Origin: Asticcacaulis sp. SL142
Lineage (GTDB): Bacteria > Pseudomonadota > Alphaproteobacteria > Caulobacterales > Caulobacteraceae
Assembly (NCBI RefSeq): GCF_026625745.1
Contig: NZ_CP113061.1
Coordinates: 1,203,501-1,267,500, forward strand
Direction: 5' to 3'
Length of the DNA stretch: 64,000 nt
Program-made: the position numbers and the translations under genes
In this document: piece after piece, positions 23,457 to 47,699 of the stretch
Layout of the letters: each line of letters opens with the position of its first letter
Position numbering within the stretch: position 1 is the stretch's first letter
Notes under the pieces: model-generated
What the model saw: only the letters and a program-made list of their open reading frames with translations
Told to the model about the DNA's origin: nothing
Database searches by the model: none

Positions 23457-25664
23457 TTAAGCCGCCGTCTTGTACGCCTTACCAAACCGGCCATAGAAGG
23501 TCTCGCCCTTGGCCGCCATGTCGCGTAAAAGCTGCGGCGGGGCAAAACGGTCGCCATAAAGCCCGGTCATGCGGTCGAGTTCCGCCACAAACGACGCGGT
23601 ACCGATTGAGTCGATCAGTGAGATGATCCCGCCCGACCACGGCGCAAAGCCCCACCCCAGGATCGAGCCGACATCGGCCTCACGCGGGTCGGTGATGACG
23701 CCTTCCTCGAAACAACGCGCCGCCGTCACCGCCTGAATATAGAGCAGGCGTTTTTTCAGTTCCTCGGCCTGTTTCGGATCGGCCTCAGACATAGTCACCG
23801 GGAACATGTCCTTGGTGCCTGACCACAGGGCCTTGTTGCCGCCCGCTTCGGGATAGTCGTAGAACCCCTTGCCGTTCTTGCGCCCCAGACGGCCATCGGC
23901 GACCATTTTGGCGACCTCCCCCTCACCGGGGATGGGGATATAGTTCGCCCCTTCGGCCTTTGCGGTTTCAGAGGTGATCTTGACCAGCAGGTCGAGTGCG
24001 ACATCATCCATCATCTCCAGCGGCCCGCGCGGCATACCCGTCGCACGACCGACATTGTCGATAATGGTCGGTGCGATCCCTTCGGCCCACATGTGCAGGC
24101 CTTCGGCGGTGAACGGAATGAAGCAGCGATTAGCAAAGAAAAAGCGCTCATCATTGACCACGATCGGGGTTTTCTTGATCTTCAGTACATAGTCAATGGC
24201 CTTGGCCAGCGTTGTGTCTGAGGTCTGCTCGCCCATGATGATCTCGACCAGCATCATCTTATCGACCGGCGAAAAGAAATGGATGCCGATATAGTTTTCC
24301 GGCCGCACCGACGCCTTGGCCAGCAGAGAAATCGGAATAGTCGAGGTGTTGGAGCCGAACACCGCCGTTTCGGCCAGTTCCGCCTCAGCCAGTTTGGTCA
24401 CACCGGCCTTGAGTTCAGTGTTTTCAAACACCGCTTCGACCACCAGATCGGAACCCTTGATAAGGCCGTAGTCCGGCGTGGCGGTGATAAGATCGAGCAC
24501 GCCTTTGGCCTTATCCTCAGTCATCTTTCCGCGTGAGACGGCCTTTTTCAGCAGGCCCTCGCAGTGGGATTTGCCCTTATCCGCCGCCGCCTGATCACGA
24601 TCGATAAGGATGACCTTGATGCCAGACATGGCTGTTACATAGGCGATCCCTGCCCCCATCATGCCGGCCCCCAGCACGGCCACTTGGGTAAACTCGGTCT
24701 TTGGCACACCCGCCGGACGGCCAGACCCCTTGCCCACCGCCTGCATCGAGAAAAACAGGGTCCTGATCATGGCCTTGGCCTGCGGTGTCATCAGGGTCCT
24801 GGCGAAATAGCGCGTCTCGACCTTAAGTGCCGAATCGATCGGCAATTGCAGCCCCTCATAAACCGCATGCATCAGGTTGATGACCGCGGGATAATTGCCG
24901 TAAGACTGCTTCCTTAACAGGGCATTGCCCATCATGAACACCTGCGCGCCCGCCGGATGGTACGGGCCACCACCGGGGATTTTAAACTCTTTTTTGTCCC
25001 ACAGAGCAACCGGATCGCCTTTTGTTTTGATCCAGGTCTTTGCGGCTTCAACCACCTGATCATCGGCCACGACTTCGTGGACGATACCGGCGGCCAGCGC
25101 TTCTTTCGGTTTGAAGCTCTTGCCTTCCGACATGGCCATCAGTGCGGCCTGCGCACCAATCAGACGCGGCAGGCGCTGCGAACCACCACCGCCGGGAAAC
25201 AGGCCGATCTTGACTTCGGGCAGGCCCATTTGAACCTTCGGGCCATCCGACAGCACCCGGTAATGGCAGGCCAGCGTCAGTTCCGTACCACCGCCCAGCG
25301 CCAGTCCGTTGATCGCCGCCGCCACCGGCTTACCGCAGGTTTCTAGTGCGCGGTAGACCCGGTTCATCTCGAACGCTGCGGCAAACGCGCCCTTGAGTTC
25401 GGCTTCGGGGTCGGATTTGTCGATGCCCTCGGCCTCCCAAGCGCCGCCCAGCATTTCCTCAAGGTCGGCGCCCGCGCAAAAACCGTTGGACTTGGCCGAG
25501 GTGATCACGACGCCCTTAACCGCCGCATCGGTTTTGGCGCGCTTCGCAATCGTCATCAGGTCATCGAGCGCGGCCTTGGTGAAGGTGTTCATGGTCTTGC
25601 CGACCGTATCAAACGCGCAGACCAGAATGCCGTCGGAATCGAGTTCAACTTTAAAATTGTCCAT
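23457..25664 (-). CDS. fadJ: 3-hydroxyacyl-CoA dehydrogenase / enoyl-CoA hydratase (fatty oxidation complex alpha subunit)
   Basis: 735 residues, typical for a FadB/FadJ-type bifunctional protein. It hydrates trans-2-enoyl-CoA and oxidises 3-hydroxyacyl-CoA to 3-ketoacyl-CoA in beta-oxidation. An N-terminal crotonase domain has GFCAGADL and INGLALGGGTELTLACHYR. The NAD domain begins VAVLGAGMMGAGIAYVTAMSG near residue 330, and the catalytic His/Glu lies in the IGIHFFSPVDKMMLVEII block. The C-terminal 3HCDH regions close with DRMTGLYGDRF. Together with the thiolase 23 bp upstream it forms a multienzyme pair. Confidence 0.95.
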   Translation of the reverse strand: MDNFKVELDSDGILVCAFDTVGKTMNTFTKAALDDLMTIAKRAKTDAAVKGVVITSAKSNGFCAGADLEEMLGGAWEAEGIDKSDPEAELKGAFAAAFEMNRVYRALETCGKPVAAAINGLALGGGTELTLACHYRVLSDGPKVQMGLPEVKIGLFPGGGGSQRLPRLIGAQAALMAMSEGKSFKPKEALAAGIVHEVVADDQVVEAAKTWIKTKGDPVALWDKKEFKIPGGGPYHPAGAQVFMMGNALLRKQSYGNYPAVINLMHAVYEGLQLPIDSALKVETRYFARTLMTPQAKAMIRTLFFSMQAVGKGSGRPAGVPKTEFTQVAVLGAGMMGAGIAYVTAMSGIKVILIDRDQAAADKGKSHCEGLLKKAVSRGKMTEDKAKGVLDLITATPDYGLIKGSDLVVEAVFENTELKAGVTKLAEAELAETAVFGSNTSTIPISLLAKASVRPENYIGIHFFSPVDKMMLVEIIMGEQTSDTTLAKAIDYVLKIKKTPIVVNDERFFFANRCFIPFTAEGLHMWAEGIAPTIIDNVGRATGMPRGPLEMMDDVALDLLVKITSETAKAEGANYIPIPGEGEVAKMVADGRLGRKNGKGFYDYPEAGGNKALWSGTKDMFPVTMSEADPKQAEELKKRLLYIQAVTAARCFEEGVITDPREADVGSILGWGFAPWSGGIISLIDSIGTASFVAELDRMTGLYGDRFAPPQLLRDMAAKGETFYGRFGKAYKTAA

Positions 25665-40698: not shown

Positions 40699-41496
40699 TT
40701 ACTTTGCCACCATCTCGTCCAGTCGGGCCCTTAATCGTTGAACCTCGACCGTAAGAGTTTCCAACGCGGCGGTTTGAGAATCCGGACTGTTGGCATCTGA
40801 GTCAATAGTTACTCTCTGCATGGCCTCCAGCATAACGCTGATAAACAAGTTGAGAACCGTGAACGTGGAGACCAGGATGAAGACCACCATGAACGGTATG
40901 GCGAGCGTCTGGGTCTGGGCCAGTTCACGTGTCATATCAGCCCAACCCTCCAGCGTCATGATCTGAAACAGGCTAAACAAAGACGCCTCAAGACTGCCAA
41001 ACCATTGCGGTGCGCTGGTGGCGAAGAGCTTGGTGGCCATGACGGCAAAGACGTAATACAGAATAAGCAGTATAGCCCCGATTGAGCCTATGCCCGGCAG
41101 CGCGGCAGCGATGCCGGAGATGACGCGACGCAAACTGGGAAAGATAGAGATAAGTCGCAGGACGCGGACAACGCGCAAAGCACGCAGTACACTCAAGGCG
41201 CCTGACGCAGGTAGCAGAGCCAAGGCGATCACGACGGTGTCGAAAAGGTTCCAGGGATCGCGAATAAAACGTCCCCCCTGAGCGAACAAACGCAGCAGCA
41301 ATTCCACTACGAATACACCCAGAAGCAGTTGGTCTAGCATTAACAACTGTGAGCCTATAAGCGCCATGACCATCGGGTAGGTTTCAAGGCCCAGGACTAT
41401 GGCATTAATGACGATCAGACCTACAATAACCGTCGTGGCTGCGGGATGATCCAGTCCGTCCCTTAGCCGCGCCCGCCAGGTCTCAATCGCGACCAT
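40699..41496 (-). CDS. Bacterial voltage-gated sodium channel-like protein (BacNav/ion transport)
   Basis: 265 residues, six transmembrane segments of the ion transport family. S4 shows arginines at regular spacing in VLRALRVVRVLRLISIFPSLRRVI, so it should sense voltage. The pore loop has TLEGWADMTREL, corresponding to the TLESWxx filter of BacNav channels, with Gly after the Glu and an extra Asp two positions after Trp. A C-terminal coiled coil (AALETLTVEVQRLRARLDEMV) would form the tetramer. ATG at 41496 overlaps the TerC gene by 14 bp; a longer frame to 41622 is not favoured. Ion selectivity cannot be settled here. Confidence 0.85.
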   Translation of the reverse strand: MVAIETWRARLRDGLDHPAATTVIVGLIVINAIVLGLETYPMVMALIGSQLLMLDQLLLGVFVVELLLRLFAQGGRFIRDPWNLFDTVVIALALLPASGALSVLRALRVVRVLRLISIFPSLRRVISGIAAALPGIGSIGAILLILYYVFAVMATKLFATSAPQWFGSLEASLFSLFQIMTLEGWADMTRELAQTQTLAIPFMVVFILVSTFTVLNLFISVMLEAMQRVTIDSDANSPDSQTAALETLTVEVQRLRARLDEMVAK

Positions 41497-42475
41497 GGTC
41501 TGCCTCCGGTGCTGTCTTGGCAGTTTTGACCAGAGAGACAATAACGCCCATGGCAATGAGACCCAGGGTAACCGCCAAGGAAATATTCGCCGGGAATTTT
41601 TCCAGCCCCAGGGCGTCGGCAATGAATATCTTGGAGCCGATGAAGATCAGAACAAACGCCAGGGCAGGCTTTAAGTACTTGAAGCGATGGATAATCGCGG
41701 CCAAAGCAAAGTATAAAGCCCTCAGACCCAGGATCGCAAATATATTGCTGGTGAATACGATGAAGGGATCAAGGGTAATCGTGAAGATTGCCGGAACGCT
41801 GTCTACCGCAAAGATGAGATCGACAAACTCGATGAGTAACAGTGCCACCAGCAAGGGCGTGGCGTAAAGCCGCCACTTCCCGGTTTTGGGGTCGGGCTGA
41901 CGCGTCAGAAACTTCTGGCCATCAAGCTGGTCGCTGATGGGGAATGCCCGGCGTATTAGCTTCAGCAAGGGATTGCTGGCGATATCGGGATGCTTGTCGC
42001 CCATAAGCAACATTTTGATGCCGGTAAAGATCAGGAATACGGCAAAAACATAGAGGACCCAGCTATACTGGGAAACCAAGGTAGCCCCCAAGGCGATCAT
42101 TATGCCACGCAGAACGATCACACCTAATATGCCCCAGAAAAGCACCCTGTGCTGGTAGATCGGCGGGATCGCGAAATAGGTGAAAATCAGTGAGATCAGG
42201 AAGACATTGTCCATCGCCAGGGTCTTTTCGACGATGAAGCCAGTCAGATACTCCTTGCCCGCCTGATCCCCGAGCGACCACCACACCCAGCCGCCGAAAG
42301 CCAGGGCGATGGTTATGTAAAAGGCGGACATCCACAAGCTTTCGCGGATGCTGATCTCATGGGTTTTGCGGTGCAGGACGCCGAGGTCGAACGCCAGCAG
42401 GGTCACCACGATGACGATGAAGCTGGCCCACATCCACACGGGCTTGCCCATAAAGAGCTCGAAAAAGATTTCCAT
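41483..42475 (-). CDS. TerC/Alx family membrane protein
   Basis: 330 residues from ATG 42475; an ATG at 42505 is also in frame. Seven to nine membrane segments. The charged positions GFIVEKTLAMDNVFLISLIFTYF and LIEFVDLIFAVDSVPAIFTIT are the paired acidic motifs of the TerC/Alx family, which exports manganese or supports membrane protein metallation. The following DPKTGKWRLYATP segment is cytoplasmic. Overlaps the downstream channel gene by 14 bp, so the two proteins are made together. No yybP-ykoY riboswitch could be recognised upstream. Confidence 0.9.
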   Translation of the reverse strand: MEIFFELFMGKPVWMWASFIVIVVTLLAFDLGVLHRKTHEISIRESLWMSAFYITIALAFGGWVWWSLGDQAGKEYLTGFIVEKTLAMDNVFLISLIFTYFAIPPIYQHRVLFWGILGVIVLRGIMIALGATLVSQYSWVLYVFAVFLIFTGIKMLLMGDKHPDIASNPLLKLIRRAFPISDQLDGQKFLTRQPDPKTGKWRLYATPLLVALLLIEFVDLIFAVDSVPAIFTITLDPFIVFTSNIFAILGLRALYFALAAIIHRFKYLKPALAFVLIFIGSKIFIADALGLEKFPANISLAVTLGLIAMGVIVSLVKTAKTAPEADHGRD

Positions 42476-42575
42476 AGAAGACTTTCTGAAATTCGGCCCG
42501 TTCATGCTCTGTGGGGAACGGGTTGCGCAAATGTGCTTGGGTTATGTGGCAGGGAGGCGGCAGGGCGCTAAGCGC

Positions 42576-42794
42576 TCAATCCAGATCGGAAAGTGAACGA
42601 CCCCGGCGGCGGGTAAAGGGCGTTGGCATGACGCTGTGCAGGGTCATTTCGACGATTTGTGTCATCTCACCTTTGTCGAGCCAGATGCCGCCACATTGCG
42701 GGCACTTGTCGAAACTAAGGGCTTCGTGGACCTCCAGCCTGAGAGGGATAAGGCAGTCGGGGCAACTGCGATCTGATCGGGTAGTCGGGTCCAT
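42576..42794 (-). CDS. TFIIB-type zinc-ribbon protein (zf-TFIIB family)
   Basis: 72 residues. CPDCLIPLRLEVHEALSFDKCPQCGGIWLDKGEM is a C-x2-C/C-x2-C zinc ribbon with the typical FxxCPxCGGIWLDxGE tail. The last 20 residues are basic. Function unknown; these proteins often lie beside transport or protease genes. It is the first gene upstream of the TerC-channel pair on the minus strand (about 100 bp from TerC). Confidence 0.85.
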   Translation of the reverse strand: MDPTTRSDRSCPDCLIPLRLEVHEALSFDKCPQCGGIWLDKGEMTQIVEMTLHSVMPTPFTRRRGRSLSDLD

Positions 42795-43121
42795 GGGGCA
42801 CTCTCGATATTTTGTTTCAGACTATGGGCGTGACTTCGGGTGTCGCTGCCATCCCGTCAGGATAGCGCCGCACACCGTTTGAAATCTGCCTGAGTTTGCT
42901 GACCGGATCGCTGTGAAGGCGCCGCCGTCTGTTTACGGAATGGCTACACTGCGGCAGCACAAACACAGCGCGTACAAGCCCACATCGCCACAGATTTTTG
43001 GCGACCCTTGCGGCTAGTGTGGTGGTGCGAGAGAGGCGCTCAACGTGTCGACCCAGACCAAGCGAGACTCGCTACAGCTTTAAAGGTGTGAGGACACTGT
43101 TTTTTGGAGAGGAACATACCC

Positions 43122-43295
43122 ATGCGTGCCCATGACGACCTAGGCTTTACCAACCCTTACAGCGCTCTGCATCAGCGGCCCGCGCCGTTACGCTCGAGAG
43201 AGGATGACGGGGAGATTCCCGGGCAGACTTTCAAGTCCTCTCGACGTGAAGGTAAAAAGCGTACGCTACGTCAGAAACCCGACATGATGCGTTGA
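43122..43295 (+). CDS. Small hypothetical protein
   Basis: 57 residues from the ATG at 43122 with GGAGAGG 9 bases ahead; a longer frame to 43104 is open. Basic C-terminal half (FKSSRREGKKRTLRQKPDMMR) and a proline-rich centre, with no membrane segment. It stands alone before the terminator at 43402 and upstream of the sensor kinase. I do not recognise it. The good ribosome site and the following terminator make translation plausible. Confidence 0.5.
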   Translation: MRAHDDLGFTNPYSALHQRPAPLRSREDDGEIPGQTFKSSRREGKKRTLRQKPDMMR

Positions 43296-43401
43296 TCTGT
43301 TTCGAACCCGCACCGCCCCCCCGTTGGGGGTTCGAAATATCCCTGTGGCTCGTTTTACCCCTCGGGCCCTGGGATGGTCGCAACGTTTTTGCGACCGCAC
43401 C

Positions 43402-43435
43402 GCTGCCAGGGCTAAATGGCCCTGGCAGCTTTTTT
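43402..43435 (+). terminator. Rho-independent terminator
   Basis: GCTGCCAGGGC (43402-43412) pairs with GGCCCTGGCAGC (43418-43429) around TAAAT and is followed by six T. It should end the small-protein transcript and isolate the two-component genes. Confidence 0.88.
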
Positions 43436-43535
43436 CTTTAAAGCTAATTTTGTCAGGTTGAGCGAAAAATCGTATGGGTCGCGCTCCGGGCCTTAAAATG
43501 ATAGTCATTTTGATAACTCCAACCGGTCAGGTCAC

Positions 43536-45056
43536 ATGTCACCCGCTCTCCTCCTCGAAGATCATGTCCGCGCGCTCCGCAGAGATCGACTGACGCTCTG
43601 GCAAGAGAGCCTTCTGAGTTTCGGTCTGGTTATCCTGGCGGCAAGTCTGGCCTTCGGGCTGGGACATCTGGGGTTTAAATCGCCAGAGTCTTTAGGTATT
43701 CTCTTTGTATTGCCGGTCTTGTGCGCGGCCGTATATTTCGATCCCAGATTAGCTTTGGGCGCGGTCGCCCTGAGTGTCATGGCTTATAACCTTGTCCTGA
43801 GCACCGCTTATGGGTCGCAGAGCGTCACCAACCCGCAAGTGCTTGCCAAGGTCGTCGTCCTTCTGACCGTAAGCCTTGTTGTCAGCGCGCTTGCCACACG
43901 CCTGCGACGCATGACGCGCGAAGGCCAGGCGCGGGAAAACTTTCTAACGGACCTCTATCAGCTCAACCAGGATCTGATCGGCAAAACCTCTGTCGGCGAC
44001 GTCTGCGCCGCCGCAGAGCACAGGATTTCGACCATCATAAAGGTGCCGTGCCGCGTTCACCTGAAATCGATGTCCGACCTTGATCCCGTTTTCGACGAGG
44101 TCATGACCCATTGCCAGGCGGCAGGGCAAGGTCAGGCAATATTTGCCACCGACCCACGCCTTATTCTCCCCCTCGGAGAGGCCGGGGATGTGGTGGGTGT
44201 TCTGGTGTTTGAGCCACGAGAGGGGCTTGTCCCGGTCGCGGACGCCTTCCCGCCCCGCTTCCTCTCGACTTTGGCAGGTCAGGTCGCCCTCGCCATCAGT
44301 CGCGCCGCCCTGACCGAGGCGCGTGCCGAACAGGTTCGTCAGGCTGACCGCGAACGATTCATGCGTGCTATGTTGTCCTCTCTATCGCACGACTTCAAAA
44401 CCCCCCTGGTCGGGATTATTGGCGCCTTCGAAGCCCTGCAGGGGCGCGGGGACGACACCGCCGCTGAGATTGTCGGAGACGGTCTTGCGGAGGCGCAGAG
44501 ACTGAACCGTTTTGTCATCAACCTTATCGAAATGAGCCGTCTTGAGACCGGCGTTCGGCCTAAATCCGAACCCGTACATATTCGCGACGCACTTTCGGGT
44601 GTGCTGAGGTCTTTGCGCCCCCTGATAGGTCAACAAAGCTTTAGAATAGAGATTGATACGGGCTTTCCGCTGCTAAACGTAAACCCGTCGCTGTTCGATC
44701 TGGTACTGCTGAATCTAATTGAAAATGCGCTGAAATATGGGCCCGCGAACGGCACCATTACGGTCGGGGCGCGACAGGTGGAACGCGGGGTAATTATCGA
44801 TATAGATGATGATGGCGAAGGCATAGCTCCGACGCAACGCGATCTGGTTTTCACGAAATTCTATCGTGCCGTCGAAGGCGACCATAAGATCGCTGGCACA
44901 GGACTGGGGCTATACATCTGCCGTGAGATTATGGACATCTACGGTGGCGCAGTCCAGGCTATCGATCCGCCGGACGGCACGGGGGCTTGCATGCGCCTTA
45001 CCCTCCCCATAGACGCCACGCTGGCCTTGATATTGCCTGAAGAGGAAACCGAATGA
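43536..45056 (+). CDS. Short KdpD-like sensor histidine kinase
   Basis: 506 residues. N-terminus holds four hydrophobic helices in about 100 residues (DUF4118-type, as in KdpD): SFGLVILAASLAFGLGHLGF, LGILFVLPVLCAAVYF, and two more. A GAF-like linker follows, then H-box MLSSLSHDFKTPLVGIIGA near residue 276 and the ATPase motifs NLIENALKYGP (N), DDDGEGIAP (G1) and GTGLGLYICREI (G2). Full KdpD has an N-terminal USP/KdpD nucleotide domain, absent here. The overlap of ATGA with the regulator gene shows coupling. No kdpABC genes in the window. Confidence 0.86.
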   Translation: MSPALLLEDHVRALRRDRLTLWQESLLSFGLVILAASLAFGLGHLGFKSPESLGILFVLPVLCAAVYFDPRLALGAVALSVMAYNLVLSTAYGSQSVTNPQVLAKVVVLLTVSLVVSALATRLRRMTREGQARENFLTDLYQLNQDLIGKTSVGDVCAAAEHRISTIIKVPCRVHLKSMSDLDPVFDEVMTHCQAAGQGQAIFATDPRLILPLGEAGDVVGVLVFEPREGLVPVADAFPPRFLSTLAGQVALAISRAALTEARAEQVRQADRERFMRAMLSSLSHDFKTPLVGIIGAFEALQGRGDDTAAEIVGDGLAEAQRLNRFVINLIEMSRLETGVRPKSEPVHIRDALSGVLRSLRPLIGQQSFRIEIDTGFPLLNVNPSLFDLVLLNLIENALKYGPANGTITVGARQVERGVIIDIDDDGEGIAPTQRDLVFTKFYRAVEGDHKIAGTGLGLYICREIMDIYGGAVQAIDPPDGTGACMRLTLPIDATLALILPEEETE

Positions 45057-45766
45057 GTGGTTTGCAGCCCAAAATTTTGGTCATCGAAGACGACCCTCAG
45101 ATCCGCAAGTTCCTGACCATTACCCTGACCTCACATGACTATGCCGTCATTCCGGCTGAGACGGGCCGCGAGGGGGTGCGTCTGGCCACATCGGTTAAGC
45201 CTGATGCGGTGCTGCTGGATCTAGGCCTGCCGGACATGGACGGCACCGAGGTCATCTCTATGCTGAGAAGCTGGTCGAAAATACCCATTCTTATCGTATC
45301 CGCCCGCGACCTTGAGGACGAAAAGATCAGGGCCTTCGACATGGGAGCCAATGACTTCGTGACCAAGCCTTTTGGCACGGGCGAGTTGCTGGCGCGATTG
45401 CGTGCCGCCCTGCGGGATTCAGTCCTGGTCGTCGCCGAGGATACCGTGGTGCGGGTCGGTGACCTGTGCATAGATCTGACGGCGCATAAGGTTACGGTGC
45501 GTGACATCACTATCAAGCTTTCACCCAAGGAATTCGCCCTATTGAAGATCCTCGCTCTGCACTCGGGTAAGCTTTTGACACACAAATATCTCATGCAGAA
45601 GGTATGGGGAGATGCCTATATCGAGGACAATCAGTATCTGCGGATCTACATTGCCCAACTCCGCCAGAAGTTAGAGCTTGATCCGGCCCGTGATCAGTTC
45701 ATCGTCAACGAACCCGGCATTGGCTATCGCCTGGAAGCCTCCGGGGGCGTTAGTGCGTTGAGTTGA
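45053..45766 (+). CDS. OmpR-family response regulator (KdpE-like)
   Basis: 237 residues. The receiver has IEDDPQIRKF, phosphorylation Asp in VKPDAVLLDLGLPDMDG, the Thr/Ser and Lys positions SARDLEDEKI and FVTKPFGTGEL. The output domain is OmpR-type winged helix: LSPKEFALLKILALHSGKLLTHKYLMQKVWGDAYIEDNQYLRIYIAQLRQKLELDP. It resembles KdpE. Four-base overlap with the kinase gene. Targets are not known; the divergent/adjacent permease genes are candidates. Confidence 0.92.
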   Translation: MSGLQPKILVIEDDPQIRKFLTITLTSHDYAVIPAETGREGVRLATSVKPDAVLLDLGLPDMDGTEVISMLRSWSKIPILIVSARDLEDEKIRAFDMGANDFVTKPFGTGELLARLRAALRDSVLVVAEDTVVRVGDLCIDLTAHKVTVRDITIKLSPKEFALLKILALHSGKLLTHKYLMQKVWGDAYIEDNQYLRIYIAQLRQKLELDPARDQFIVNEPGIGYRLEASGGVSALS

Positions 45767-45775
45767 GGCGCTATT

Positions 45776-46654
45776 TTAGTTGGAGCGCATCTGGTCAAGG
45801 CTGTCAATTATGTGCCGTGCCAACATAGTGCCGGCCGGACCTAGCCCGTCGGCAGTCAACATGGCGATTTCGGCATCGGCAAGATCAGGCAAGCCCAGCC
45901 AGTGGTCAGCCACCCTGACGCCCTTGGGTATCATATTGGCGGGCAGGACGCTGACGCCTAACCCCGACCTCACCGCCGCCAGGGTGCCCGTCAGACTAGG
46001 GCTGGTATAGCCTATGCGCCAGTTCCGACCCTGACGCGCCAACGCGGCCAGGGCGCGGGCCCGGTAGATGCACGGCGGCGGGGAAAGCGCCAGGGTAAGT
46101 GCCGTATCGTTGACCGAGCCAGACGCTCCCCTTGAGAGCTCTCCGGTCACCCAGACCAGCGGTTCGCGCCACACCCGAACACCGCCGTCCACCGTCTGAG
46201 GGTCGCGTTTAACCAGTACAATATCGTGCTGGCCCTGCTCGAACGCCTTGACGAGGTTCAGGGTCAGGTCGCAACTGACATTGAGCAGCACCCGCGGATG
46301 CAGGGCGCGAAACGCGGCAAGAACATCGGGGAGGTAGTGGGTGGCAAAATCCTCCGGCGTACCCAGACGAATCTCGCCCTCAACCTCCGGCTCATGCATC
46401 CGTGAAAAGGCTTCGCGCTGGAGGTCCAGAATAGATCGCGCATAACCCAGAAATATTTCTCCCTCATGCGTCAGCTTCACATAGCGCTGCGTCCGCTGAA
46501 ACAGGGCATGGCCGACACTGTCCTCAAGGCGGCGTATCTGCATACTTAGGGCGGATTGGCTTCGACCCACCTTATCGGCGGCGCGGGTGAAATTTAAGGT
46601 TTCAGCCAGGGCCATGAAGGCCTTCAAAGTCTGACTATCGGTATTGAATGACAT
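45776..46654 (-). CDS. LysR-family transcriptional regulator
   Basis: 292 residues. The N-terminal HTH is MSFNTDSQTLKAFMALAETLNFTRAADKVGRSQSALSMQIRRLEDSVGHALFQR. The C-terminal effector domain has the periplasmic-binding-protein fold (EIRLGTPEDFATHYLPDVLAAFRALHPRV onward). It is divergent from the SbtA-like permease gene across about 90 bp containing an ATCG/CGAT palindrome, the standard layout for an autoregulator of a neighbouring transporter. Confidence 0.9.
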   Translation of the reverse strand: MSFNTDSQTLKAFMALAETLNFTRAADKVGRSQSALSMQIRRLEDSVGHALFQRTQRYVKLTHEGEIFLGYARSILDLQREAFSRMHEPEVEGEIRLGTPEDFATHYLPDVLAAFRALHPRVLLNVSCDLTLNLVKAFEQGQHDIVLVKRDPQTVDGGVRVWREPLVWVTGELSRGASGSVNDTALTLALSPPPCIYRARALAALARQGRNWRIGYTSPSLTGTLAAVRSGLGVSVLPANMIPKGVRVADHWLGLPDLADAEIAMLTADGLGPAGTMLARHIIDSLDQMRSN

Positions 46655-46667
46655 CGGTTATCTATGA

Positions 46668-46683
46668 ATCGAATAATTGCGAT
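46668..46683. promoter_or_regulatory. LysR-type binding site candidate
   Basis: ATCG-N8-CGAT, a 16-bp inverted repeat 14 bp upstream of the LysR start and 63 bp upstream of the permease ATG. Position and form match a LysR recognition site but spacing differs from the canonical T-N11-A. Confidence 0.4.
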
Positions 46684-46745
46684 AAGAATATTCCATTTTA
46701 CGAATAACAGCAACTCCTCTACCCCGACGTCCAGTGGAGGTGAAG

Positions 46746-47699
46746 ATGAGTTTTTCTTTGGTTCAGGGCATGGTTTCCGCCCCGGTTCTGTTTTTCGGTC
46801 TTGGCATCTTTGCGGGTCTTGTTCGCTCCAACCTGAGCGTGCCGCGTAGCATCAGTCAGTTCCTGTCGATCTTCCTGATGATGGCGATCGGCCTTAAGGG
46901 GGGTATGGCTCTAAGAGCGGAAGGCGTGCCAACGCTCGAATTTGCCGCTACCCTCGTTATTGGCATACTGTTCGGGCTGATTCAGCCCGTGATCGGCTAT
47001 GCGCTTTTAAAGTTTACCACTTCGCTCGACAGGGCGACGGCTGCCGCAACGGCGGCGCACTATGGTTCTGTTAGCATCGTCACCTTCGCGACCGCCGTCA
47101 GCTATCTGGAACTCAATCAGGTGGCCTTCGCGGGCTATATTGTTGCCGTGGTGGCTATGATGGAGGCCCCGGCGATTGTGTCTGGGCTGATGCTGGCACG
47201 CGGTAAGGGGGCGCAAAAGCGGTTCGGTCACCTTCTGGCAGAGACCGCCACTAACGGCGCGGTCTTGCTACTCATTGGTTCACTGCTCATTGGTGCGGCC
47301 CTCGGATCAAGCAGGTTAACCGGCGTAAGTGCCCTGTTCATTGACCCGTTCCAGGGCGTTCTTTGCCTGTTCCTGCTCGACATGGGGCTGACCGTTAGCC
47401 GAAACCTCGTGCACGTCCGGCAGTTCTCGTTAGGCTTGTTGGCTTTCGGGCTATATATGCCCCTGATCGGTGCCGTTTTGGGTTTAATCGCCAGCCGAAT
47501 AATTGGTCTGGACGATGGAACGGCCTTCTTGTTTACGGTCCTGTGCGCCTCGGCGTCTTACATCGCCGTTCCGGCCGCGATGCGCGTCGCCTTGCCCCAG
47601 GCACAGCAAGCGATCTACGTACCCATGAGCCTTGCCATAACCTTTCCGTTCAATATCCTGATAGGTATTCCTACATACTTTTACCTAACCCATCTATGA
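46746..47699 (+). CDS. SbtA-like sodium-dependent bicarbonate-type permease (DUF897)
   Basis: 317 residues from the ATG at 46746, with GGAGG 5 bases ahead. About ten membrane segments. Pattern is SbtA/DUF897: SVPRSISQFLSIFLMMAIGLKGGMALR, RATAAATAAHYGSVSIVTFATAVSYLEL, and FLFTVLCASASYIAVPAAMRVALPQAQQAIYVPMSLAITFPFNILIGIP. Cyanobacterial SbtA takes up bicarbonate with Na+; in heterotrophs the substrate is not certain. Divergent from a LysR-type regulator that probably controls it. Confidence 0.85.
   Translation: MSFSLVQGMVSAPVLFFGLGIFAGLVRSNLSVPRSISQFLSIFLMMAIGLKGGMALRAEGVPTLEFAATLVIGILFGLIQPVIGYALLKFTTSLDRATAAATAAHYGSVSIVTFATAVSYLELNQVAFAGYIVAVVAMMEAPAIVSGLMLARGKGAQKRFGHLLAETATNGAVLLLIGSLLIGAALGSSRLTGVSALFIDPFQGVLCLFLLDMGLTVSRNLVHVRQFSLGLLAFGLYMPLIGAVLGLIASRIIGLDDGTAFLFTVLCASASYIAVPAAMRVALPQAQQAIYVPMSLAITFPFNILIGIPTYFYLTHL

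Follow-up and report, generated by a model that had tools for sequence, protein, structure and literature searches.

The terC–channel locus

The window, which is the whole stretch of DNA that was analysed (64,000 nucleotides of Asticcacaulis sp. SL142), contains a predicted cation channel gene that overlaps a terC gene. The features of the locus are as follows.

40699–41496, minus strand: predicted one-domain (6TM) voltage-gated cation channel of the BacNav superfamily, 265 aa, ATG start (ORF, PF00520, NavMs match)
40936–40956, minus strand: selectivity filter TLEGWAD, T181 to D187, with Glu183 as the high-field site, Gly184 and Asp187 (codons, translation)
41155–41184, minus strand: S4 voltage-sensor arginines R105, R108, R111 and R114, at three-residue spacing (aligned with the NavMs arginines)
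41483–41496, minus strand: overlap of the terC 3′ end and the channel 5′ end, 14 bp (ORF coordinates)
41483–42505, minus strand: membrane protein of the TerC/Alx metal-homeostasis family, 340 aa, or 330 aa if started at the Met at 42475 (ORF, Pfam, TIGR03718)
41503–41507, minus strand: Shine-Dalgarno-like GGAGG inside terC, 6 nt 5′ of the channel ATG (by eye)
42576–42794, minus strand: zinc-ribbon protein (zf-TFIIB, PF13453), 72 aa, upstream of terC, perhaps the first operon gene (seen beside the pair in seven of eight genus genomes)
43536–45056, plus strand: DUF4118-HisKA sensor kinase, divergent from terC, like KdpD in its membrane and kinase part, N-terminal part of KdpD absent
45053–45766, plus strand: KdpE-like response regulator

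The first-pass annotation had described two genes overlapping by 14 bp, and both genes and their overlap are real. It placed the end of the pair at 42475. This is not the end of the TerC ORF, which runs to 42505, but it is a possible start, since residue 11 of the ORF is an internal Met at this position. The alignments of TerC to four genus-mates (L004, L005, L007, L008) begin at residue 11, while those to two nearer genus-mates (L002, L003) begin at residues 1 and 3, which leaves both starts possible. The GGAGG within terC favours, without proving, a joint reading of terC and the channel gene. The two genes, with the zinc-ribbon gene in front, probably form one operon in which they would be transcribed together.

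The window genome has a single match to the channel, and a second TerC, 46% identical, is encoded elsewhere in it. The dN/dS of the channel is 0.08–0.10 against five genus-mates and 0.07–0.20 over all 15 pairs, and that of terC is 0.03–0.09 among genus-mates; these values are rough, as synonymous sites are near saturation. The channel is under purifying selection. At some distance from the pair, between 35228 and 37643 of the window, a tRNA-Lys is followed by genes for a tyrosine integrase and an MqsA antitoxin, which is probably the border of an integrated element.

The channel protein

The channel matches Ion_trans (PF00520) in Pfam with E 5e-40. The best match among solved structures has E 1e-60 and belongs to an entry which we take to be NavMs, making this its closest solved relative; both matches bear out the earlier description of the gene as BacNav-like. 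As in canonical BacNavs of the NavAb/NavMs kind, the protein has a single Ion_trans domain, is nearest to the solved BacNavs and has the regular arginine spacing in S4. The TLESW filter, a further mark of this group, is absent and TLEGWAD is found instead. Therefore, the channel is considered a variant of the canonical BacNav lineage and not a typical member. In a tree computed without the filter columns it also places among the canonical BacNavs, although the deep forks of this tree are weakly supported and its rows were hand-picked.

Compared with NavMs and NavAb-like BacNavs, the channel has the same single 6TM domain, S4 arginines, pore and C-terminal tail. It differs from them in the filter (TLEGWAD versus TLESWSM), in having one residue fewer than NavMs just after the filter in the alignment, and in its probable operon partner TerC.

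Two other channel types resemble it in the filter. CavMr of Meiothermus ruber, a member of the AnclNav group, shares Glu3, Gly4 and Asp7, whereas Val6 of CavMr is replaced with Ala6. The window channel has no cysteine, whereas a disulfide has been reported in the L6 extracellular loop of CavMr. In the tree, the channel groups with the canonical BacNavs, apart from four rows that we judge to be AnclNav-like (L137, L160, L207, L281); CavMr itself and NavPp lie outside this tree. Given this separation and the missing L6 disulfide, an assignment of the channel as a CavMr orthologue is not supported. The second type is Cav3 (T-type): when the solved chain 9ayg is aligned to a bacterial relative, its domain I filter is seen to be TLEGWVD. 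Unlike the one-domain window channel, the Cav3 proteins are four-domain eukaryotic channels.

Selectivity filter and predicted ion preference

The first-pass annotation read the filter as TLEGWAD, which the codons confirm, and described its aspartate as an added residue that in engineered channels shifts selectivity toward Ca2+. The Asp is not an addition, as it stands in place of the Met found at filter position 7 of TLESWSM channels. The calcium argument can be examined against CavMr, a native Ca2+ channel with the filter TLEGWVD, for which a PCa/PNa of >200 is reported (PMC7041947). According to the mutant data given there, the D7M variant of CavMr keeps a PCa/PNa of ~144, while G4S and G4D fall to ~12 and ~8, so that Asp7 is dispensable and Gly4 is needed for Ca2+ selectivity (PMC7041947). 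An argument for Ca2+ from the aspartate alone has been set aside on these data. A comparative “beacon” model likewise attributes the Ca2+ selectivity of one-domain channels to a Gly right after the high-field residue (PMC10120453). In its text, an aspartate is put at the CavMr high-field site, which differs from the filter given in the eLife paper (PMC7041947).

Gly4, rather than Asp7, is thus probably the informative residue of the window filter. Since Asp7 is dispensable and Gly4 is needed in CavMr, calcium is still the best guess, on grounds other than the Asp, and by this analogy the window channel likely prefers Ca2+. The part of the earlier claim that stands is the probable leaning of the filter toward calcium, while the reason given for it does not. 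The scaffold of the window channel probably differs from that of CavMr, and exchanges of the filter between CavMr and NavAb are reported to have given no current (PMC7041947). With Ala6 in addition, the selectivity of this filter in a NavMs-like frame is not confidently predictable.

The TerC partner and RNA motifs

The assignment of the overlapping gene to the TerC/Alx family, made already in the first-pass annotation, is well founded. The protein scores 400 bits against TIGR03718 (TerC/Alx; cut-off 246) and 165 bits, E 2e-48, against PF03741 (TerC; cut-off 27.8). The TIGR03718 match above the curated cut-off places it in a common family with E. coli Alx and B. subtilis MeeF and MeeY. TerC proteins are described as having Mn2+ efflux activity; those of B. 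subtilis load Mn into exported enzymes and copurify with the general secretory pathway (PMC10550928).

In contrast to those proteins, the window terC overlaps an ion-channel gene and has no yybP-ykoY riboswitch. This Mn2+ riboswitch is common but not obligatory in the family, and none was found in the window at the gathering threshold or at E<=5. Another motif, the terC RNA motif RF03067, was found 5′ of terC in all six Rhodobacterales terC–channel pairs that were searched (L107, L141, L154, L201, L202, L218). No match to it was obtained in the window, the Asticcacaulis pair included, in eight further stretches from seven genomes of the genus, or at the window genome's second terC. The position of the motif suggests that in the Rhodobacterales the channel joined a terC unit that is probably RNA-controlled, the cis-regulatory nature of RF03067 being Rfam's label. 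We know of no ligand for RF03067, and the channel partner may hint at an ionic signal. RF03067 was also considered as a marker of the terC–channel pair and rejected. It is widespread in the class, with matches in 51 of 385 genomes (50 above the cut-off), often beside TerC matches, and it is absent from all four class-sample genomes with a linked channel.

The pair in the genus Asticcacaulis and its neighbouring genes

The channel is present in 8 of 25 Asticcacaulis genomes, and the TerC type of the window (>=87% identical) is present in exactly those eight, adjacent to the channel in each. One of them, G010, has an extra, channel-less TerC copy that is 75% identical. The filter is TLEGWAD in all eight genomes, and the overlap of the two genes is 14 bp in four and 4 bp in the other four. 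Named hosts among the genus-mates are Asticcacaulis biprosthecium C19 and Asticcacaulis sp. AC402. A check for co-occurrence in other genomes had been proposed together with the pairing itself, and restriction to this strain had been named as one result that would speak against it. As the pair is found in eight genus genomes and also in other Alphaproteobacteria, that objection falls away.

At the pair of G010 (L096) the zinc-ribbon gene was not found, and in the same genome a zinc-ribbon gene precedes the channel-less terC copy (L097:4275-4460). This gene therefore accompanies terC rather than the channel, and it is not taken as a fixed part of the module.

The best match of the divergent sensor kinase is to KdpD, in its membrane and kinase part, far below the cut-off of that model. 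Among the 25 genomes, kinase orthologues of at least 63% identity occur in the eight that carry the pair and in no others, the next-best matches being ~30% identical. The kinase adjoins terC in seven of the eight; in G005, the kinase and the pair are on two contigs, each close to a contig end. About 740 bp separate the zinc-ribbon gene from the kinase (window 42800–43536). No Rfam match was found in the gap between terC and the kinase, nor any tmRNA or tRNA with ARAGORN. Stretches of this gap align with L094, L095 and L096, and a terminator-like hairpin on the plus strand is visible by eye near 43420–43450. Beside the module, at 45776–47699, lie an Sbt_1 Na+/bicarbonate transporter gene and a divergent LysR regulator gene, both of which are also present in A. 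biprosthecium (L095).

TerC linkage and filter type outside the genus

Within the order, TerC was found beside none of the 22 next-best channel loci (L009–L030, ~1.5 kb flank), including two loci, L029 and L030, with the filters TLEGWAE and TLEGWPD. A class sample of 385 genomes was then compared, in which TerC lies directly 5′ of the channel and on the same strand in four (the window genome, G509, G304 and G555). The filters of these four channels are TLEGWAD, TLEGWAE, TLEGWPD and TLEGWPD. Among 120 channel rows from this sample, TerC linkage was found for 4 of 11 with a TLEGW[AP][DE] filter, leaving 7 of 11 unlinked, versus 0 of 109 others, 70 of which are TLESW types (Fisher p 4e-5, no kinship correction). 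The rows extend down to E 1.4e-23, with those at E 1.4e-16 and worse left out. Six loci were removed as duplicates, 12 rows in which no filter could be recognised were scored as “other”, and some flanks were limited to ~1.5 kb. The only TLESW case near a TerC is G203 (filter TLESWSV), which has a convergent, 33%-identical TerC-like gene alongside. Neither this locus nor three with TerC a few kb off (G201, G524, G348) was scored as linked.

Species genomes were also searched by pattern for filters with an acidic position 7, which gave at least 115 stretches, in blocks of <=8 kb with the match at an arbitrary place. Among the matches listed, a TerC gene lies within the stretch in 15 of 61 TLEGW[AP][DE] loci versus 1 of 54 loci with other TLEGWx[DE] filters; L155 joins the TerC-bearing TLEGW[AP][DE] group once its contig was matched. 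TerC lies directly 5′ and on the same strand in 14/61 versus 0/54 of the matches listed (Fisher p 7e-5, no kinship correction), or in 14/44 versus 0/41 when only loci that are linked or have at least 1.2 kb visible upstream are counted. TLEGW[AP][DE] channels without an adjoining TerC make up 45 of the 61 among the matches listed. Of the 46 such loci that first appeared to have no TerC, 43 were traced to whole genomes (all except L163, L195 and L213), which added L155; for the remaining traced loci, adjacency is excluded by place or contig size. L125 is one example, as one TerC of that genome is on a contig of 32,722 bases and the other lies beyond base 24,700 of its contig, and the channel contig has 18,638 bases.

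The linked hosts among the matches listed include Rhodobacter kunshanensis and R. ruber (record names), other Rhodobacterales, and Hyphomicrobiales, Ca. Jidaibacter and Rhodospirillales MAGs. Other arrangements were also seen. TerC is divergent from the channel in L110, a Rickettsiales MAG, and lies ~1.2 kb downstream of the channel in L175, a Bacteroidetes MAG. In another Rickettsiales genome (L148 and L305), the channel and a TerC are each at a contig end, which is compatible with the divergent layout of its close relative L110.

A phylum sample of 23 loci (~1.5 kb flank) contained two TLEGW[AP][DE] channels, of which one is linked to TerC (L376, TLEGWAD) and one is not (TLEGWPD); none of its 19 TLESWSM channels is linked. 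These samples overlap in part: L376 is probably from the genome of L218, L379 coincides with L222, L345 is identical to L365, and four further pairs come from the same genomes (L122/L087, L206/L089, L112/L003, L176/L004). Starting from the other partner, a channel was found in 0 of 50 other TerC regions (40 fetched and 10 from the genus).

History of the pairing

A channel tree of 247 rows was computed from a set cleared of duplicates and of four short rows (L133, L164, L195, L208). From it, 86 rows were hand-picked, every linked row together with a varied selection of the rest, for a second tree that omits the filter columns. The linked channels fall in two places of the 86-row tree. The first clade (support 97) contains Asticcacaulis, Rhodospirillales, Hyphomicrobiales and Rickettsiales-type rows, 15 of its 20 rows being linked. 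The second (support 96), near NavMs, consists of six Rhodobacterales, and its neighbour (support 98) is a TLESWSM channel that lacks a TerC. On the same tree, the placement of all 21 linked rows in one clade is rejected (p 2.6e-7).

The linked TerCs require six changes on a 74-row TerC tree, from which the partial TerC of L099 was omitted, and five of these changes are forced by well-supported branches. With two channel lineages and several TerC lineages involved, the coupling is recurrent, and the scatter on both trees indicates that TerC and channel joined, or exchanged partners, several times. The TerC–channel pairing arose more than once in bacteria. When kinship is taken into account on the 247-row tree, the association between filter and TerC comes down to two independent pairs (2 with, 0 against and 6 tied of 8; sign test p 0.5).

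Proposed function

In the titles and abstracts searched (best-ranked matches, with subscription papers outside the scope), no description of a pairing of TerC with a bacterial Nav/Cav channel was found. Both protein families are known. Bacterial Nav/Cav channels are structural workhorses, and their physiological role outside the alkaliphiles is largely open. For CavMr, the authors offer suggestions on this point (PMC7041947). A recurrent, filter-biased operon gives a concrete hypothesis, in which divalent-metal homeostasis would be tied to membrane voltage, and the bacteria concerned are harmless. The locus also supplies native filters with Gly4 and an acidic position 7 in a NavMs-like frame, for the study of the origin of Ca2+ selectivity.

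We tentatively prefer, with somewhat less than even confidence, the reading that the locus is a probable terC–channel operon for the entry and exit of divalent cations. A channel whose filter is of the calcium type would be co-produced with a TerC/Alx exporter, and the divergent KdpDE-like system would probably control both. Depolarisation would open the channel and divalent cations would enter, chiefly Ca2+ and perhaps Mn2+. TerC would expel the divalent ion that has entered, or Mn2+, or else load it onto exported proteins. Voltage would set the entry and the exporter would set the exit, both in one membrane, and how much channel and TerC is made may depend on the KdpDE-like sensor of ionic state. 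Co-transcription, voltage gating, Ca2+ selectivity, the substrate of TerC, the two-component control and the physiological loop are the parts of this model that we infer. A broader proposal, possible but doubtful, is that canonical BacNavs repeatedly gained a calcium-type filter and became locked with TerC, which would make the pair a bacterial voltage-to-metal circuit, one regulated unit that in Asticcacaulis is under a KdpDE-like sensor.

The locus could instead serve sodium and pH. The channel would then mainly give Na+ or non-selective re-entry at alkaline pH or low membrane potential, with an Alx-type TerC as its alkaline-pH partner and metals as a secondary matter. E. coli Alx has been called a Mn2+ exporter active at alkaline pH, a Na+/bicarbonate transporter gene is close by, and Nav channels of alkaliphilic prokaryotes are reported to import Na+ for pH homeostasis (PMC4225499). 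We nevertheless regard this as rather unlikely, as direct TerC linkage was seen for none of the 70 TLESW-type (Na+-type) channels of the class sample and Gly4 filters have been tied to Ca2+ (PMC7041947, PMC10120453).

The co-inheritance of the divergent KdpD-type kinase and its regulator, and the zinc-ribbon gene 5′ of the channel-less terC copy, would also suit a shared regulon, in which channel and TerC answer the same ionic or envelope stress through the KdpDE-like system without handling the same ion. This, too, appears improbable, as the three other hosts checked (L087, L154, L303) have the TerC–channel link without a match to the kinase, and only L154 has a regulator match, at 28%.

TerC may also help to assemble or metalate the channel or exported proteins, the channel giving control of membrane potential and not of metal, and the B. 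subtilis TerCs that copurify with the secretory pathway and metalate exported enzymes offer a precedent (PMC10550928). Most channel relatives have no TerC neighbour, and we consider this explanation quite unlikely. To our knowledge, no metal cofactor of BacNavs has been described, which counts further against TerC as a factor for channel assembly or metalation. Despite the patchy occurrence in the genus (8/25), a chance neighbourhood of two genes that merely spread together is very improbable because the pairing recurs, with several TerC and two channel lineages sharing order and strand, and the channel is under purifying selection.

Other channels seen in the surveys

Two further observations concern channels of other filter types. 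One alphaproteobacterial genus has tandem duplicates of TLESWSM channels (L234, L237, L241) in three of its genomes (G380, G473, G550). The unusual filter type TLSSWE[NQT] was found in one-domain channels of small-genome Alphaproteobacteria (L285, L288–L292, L294, L297).
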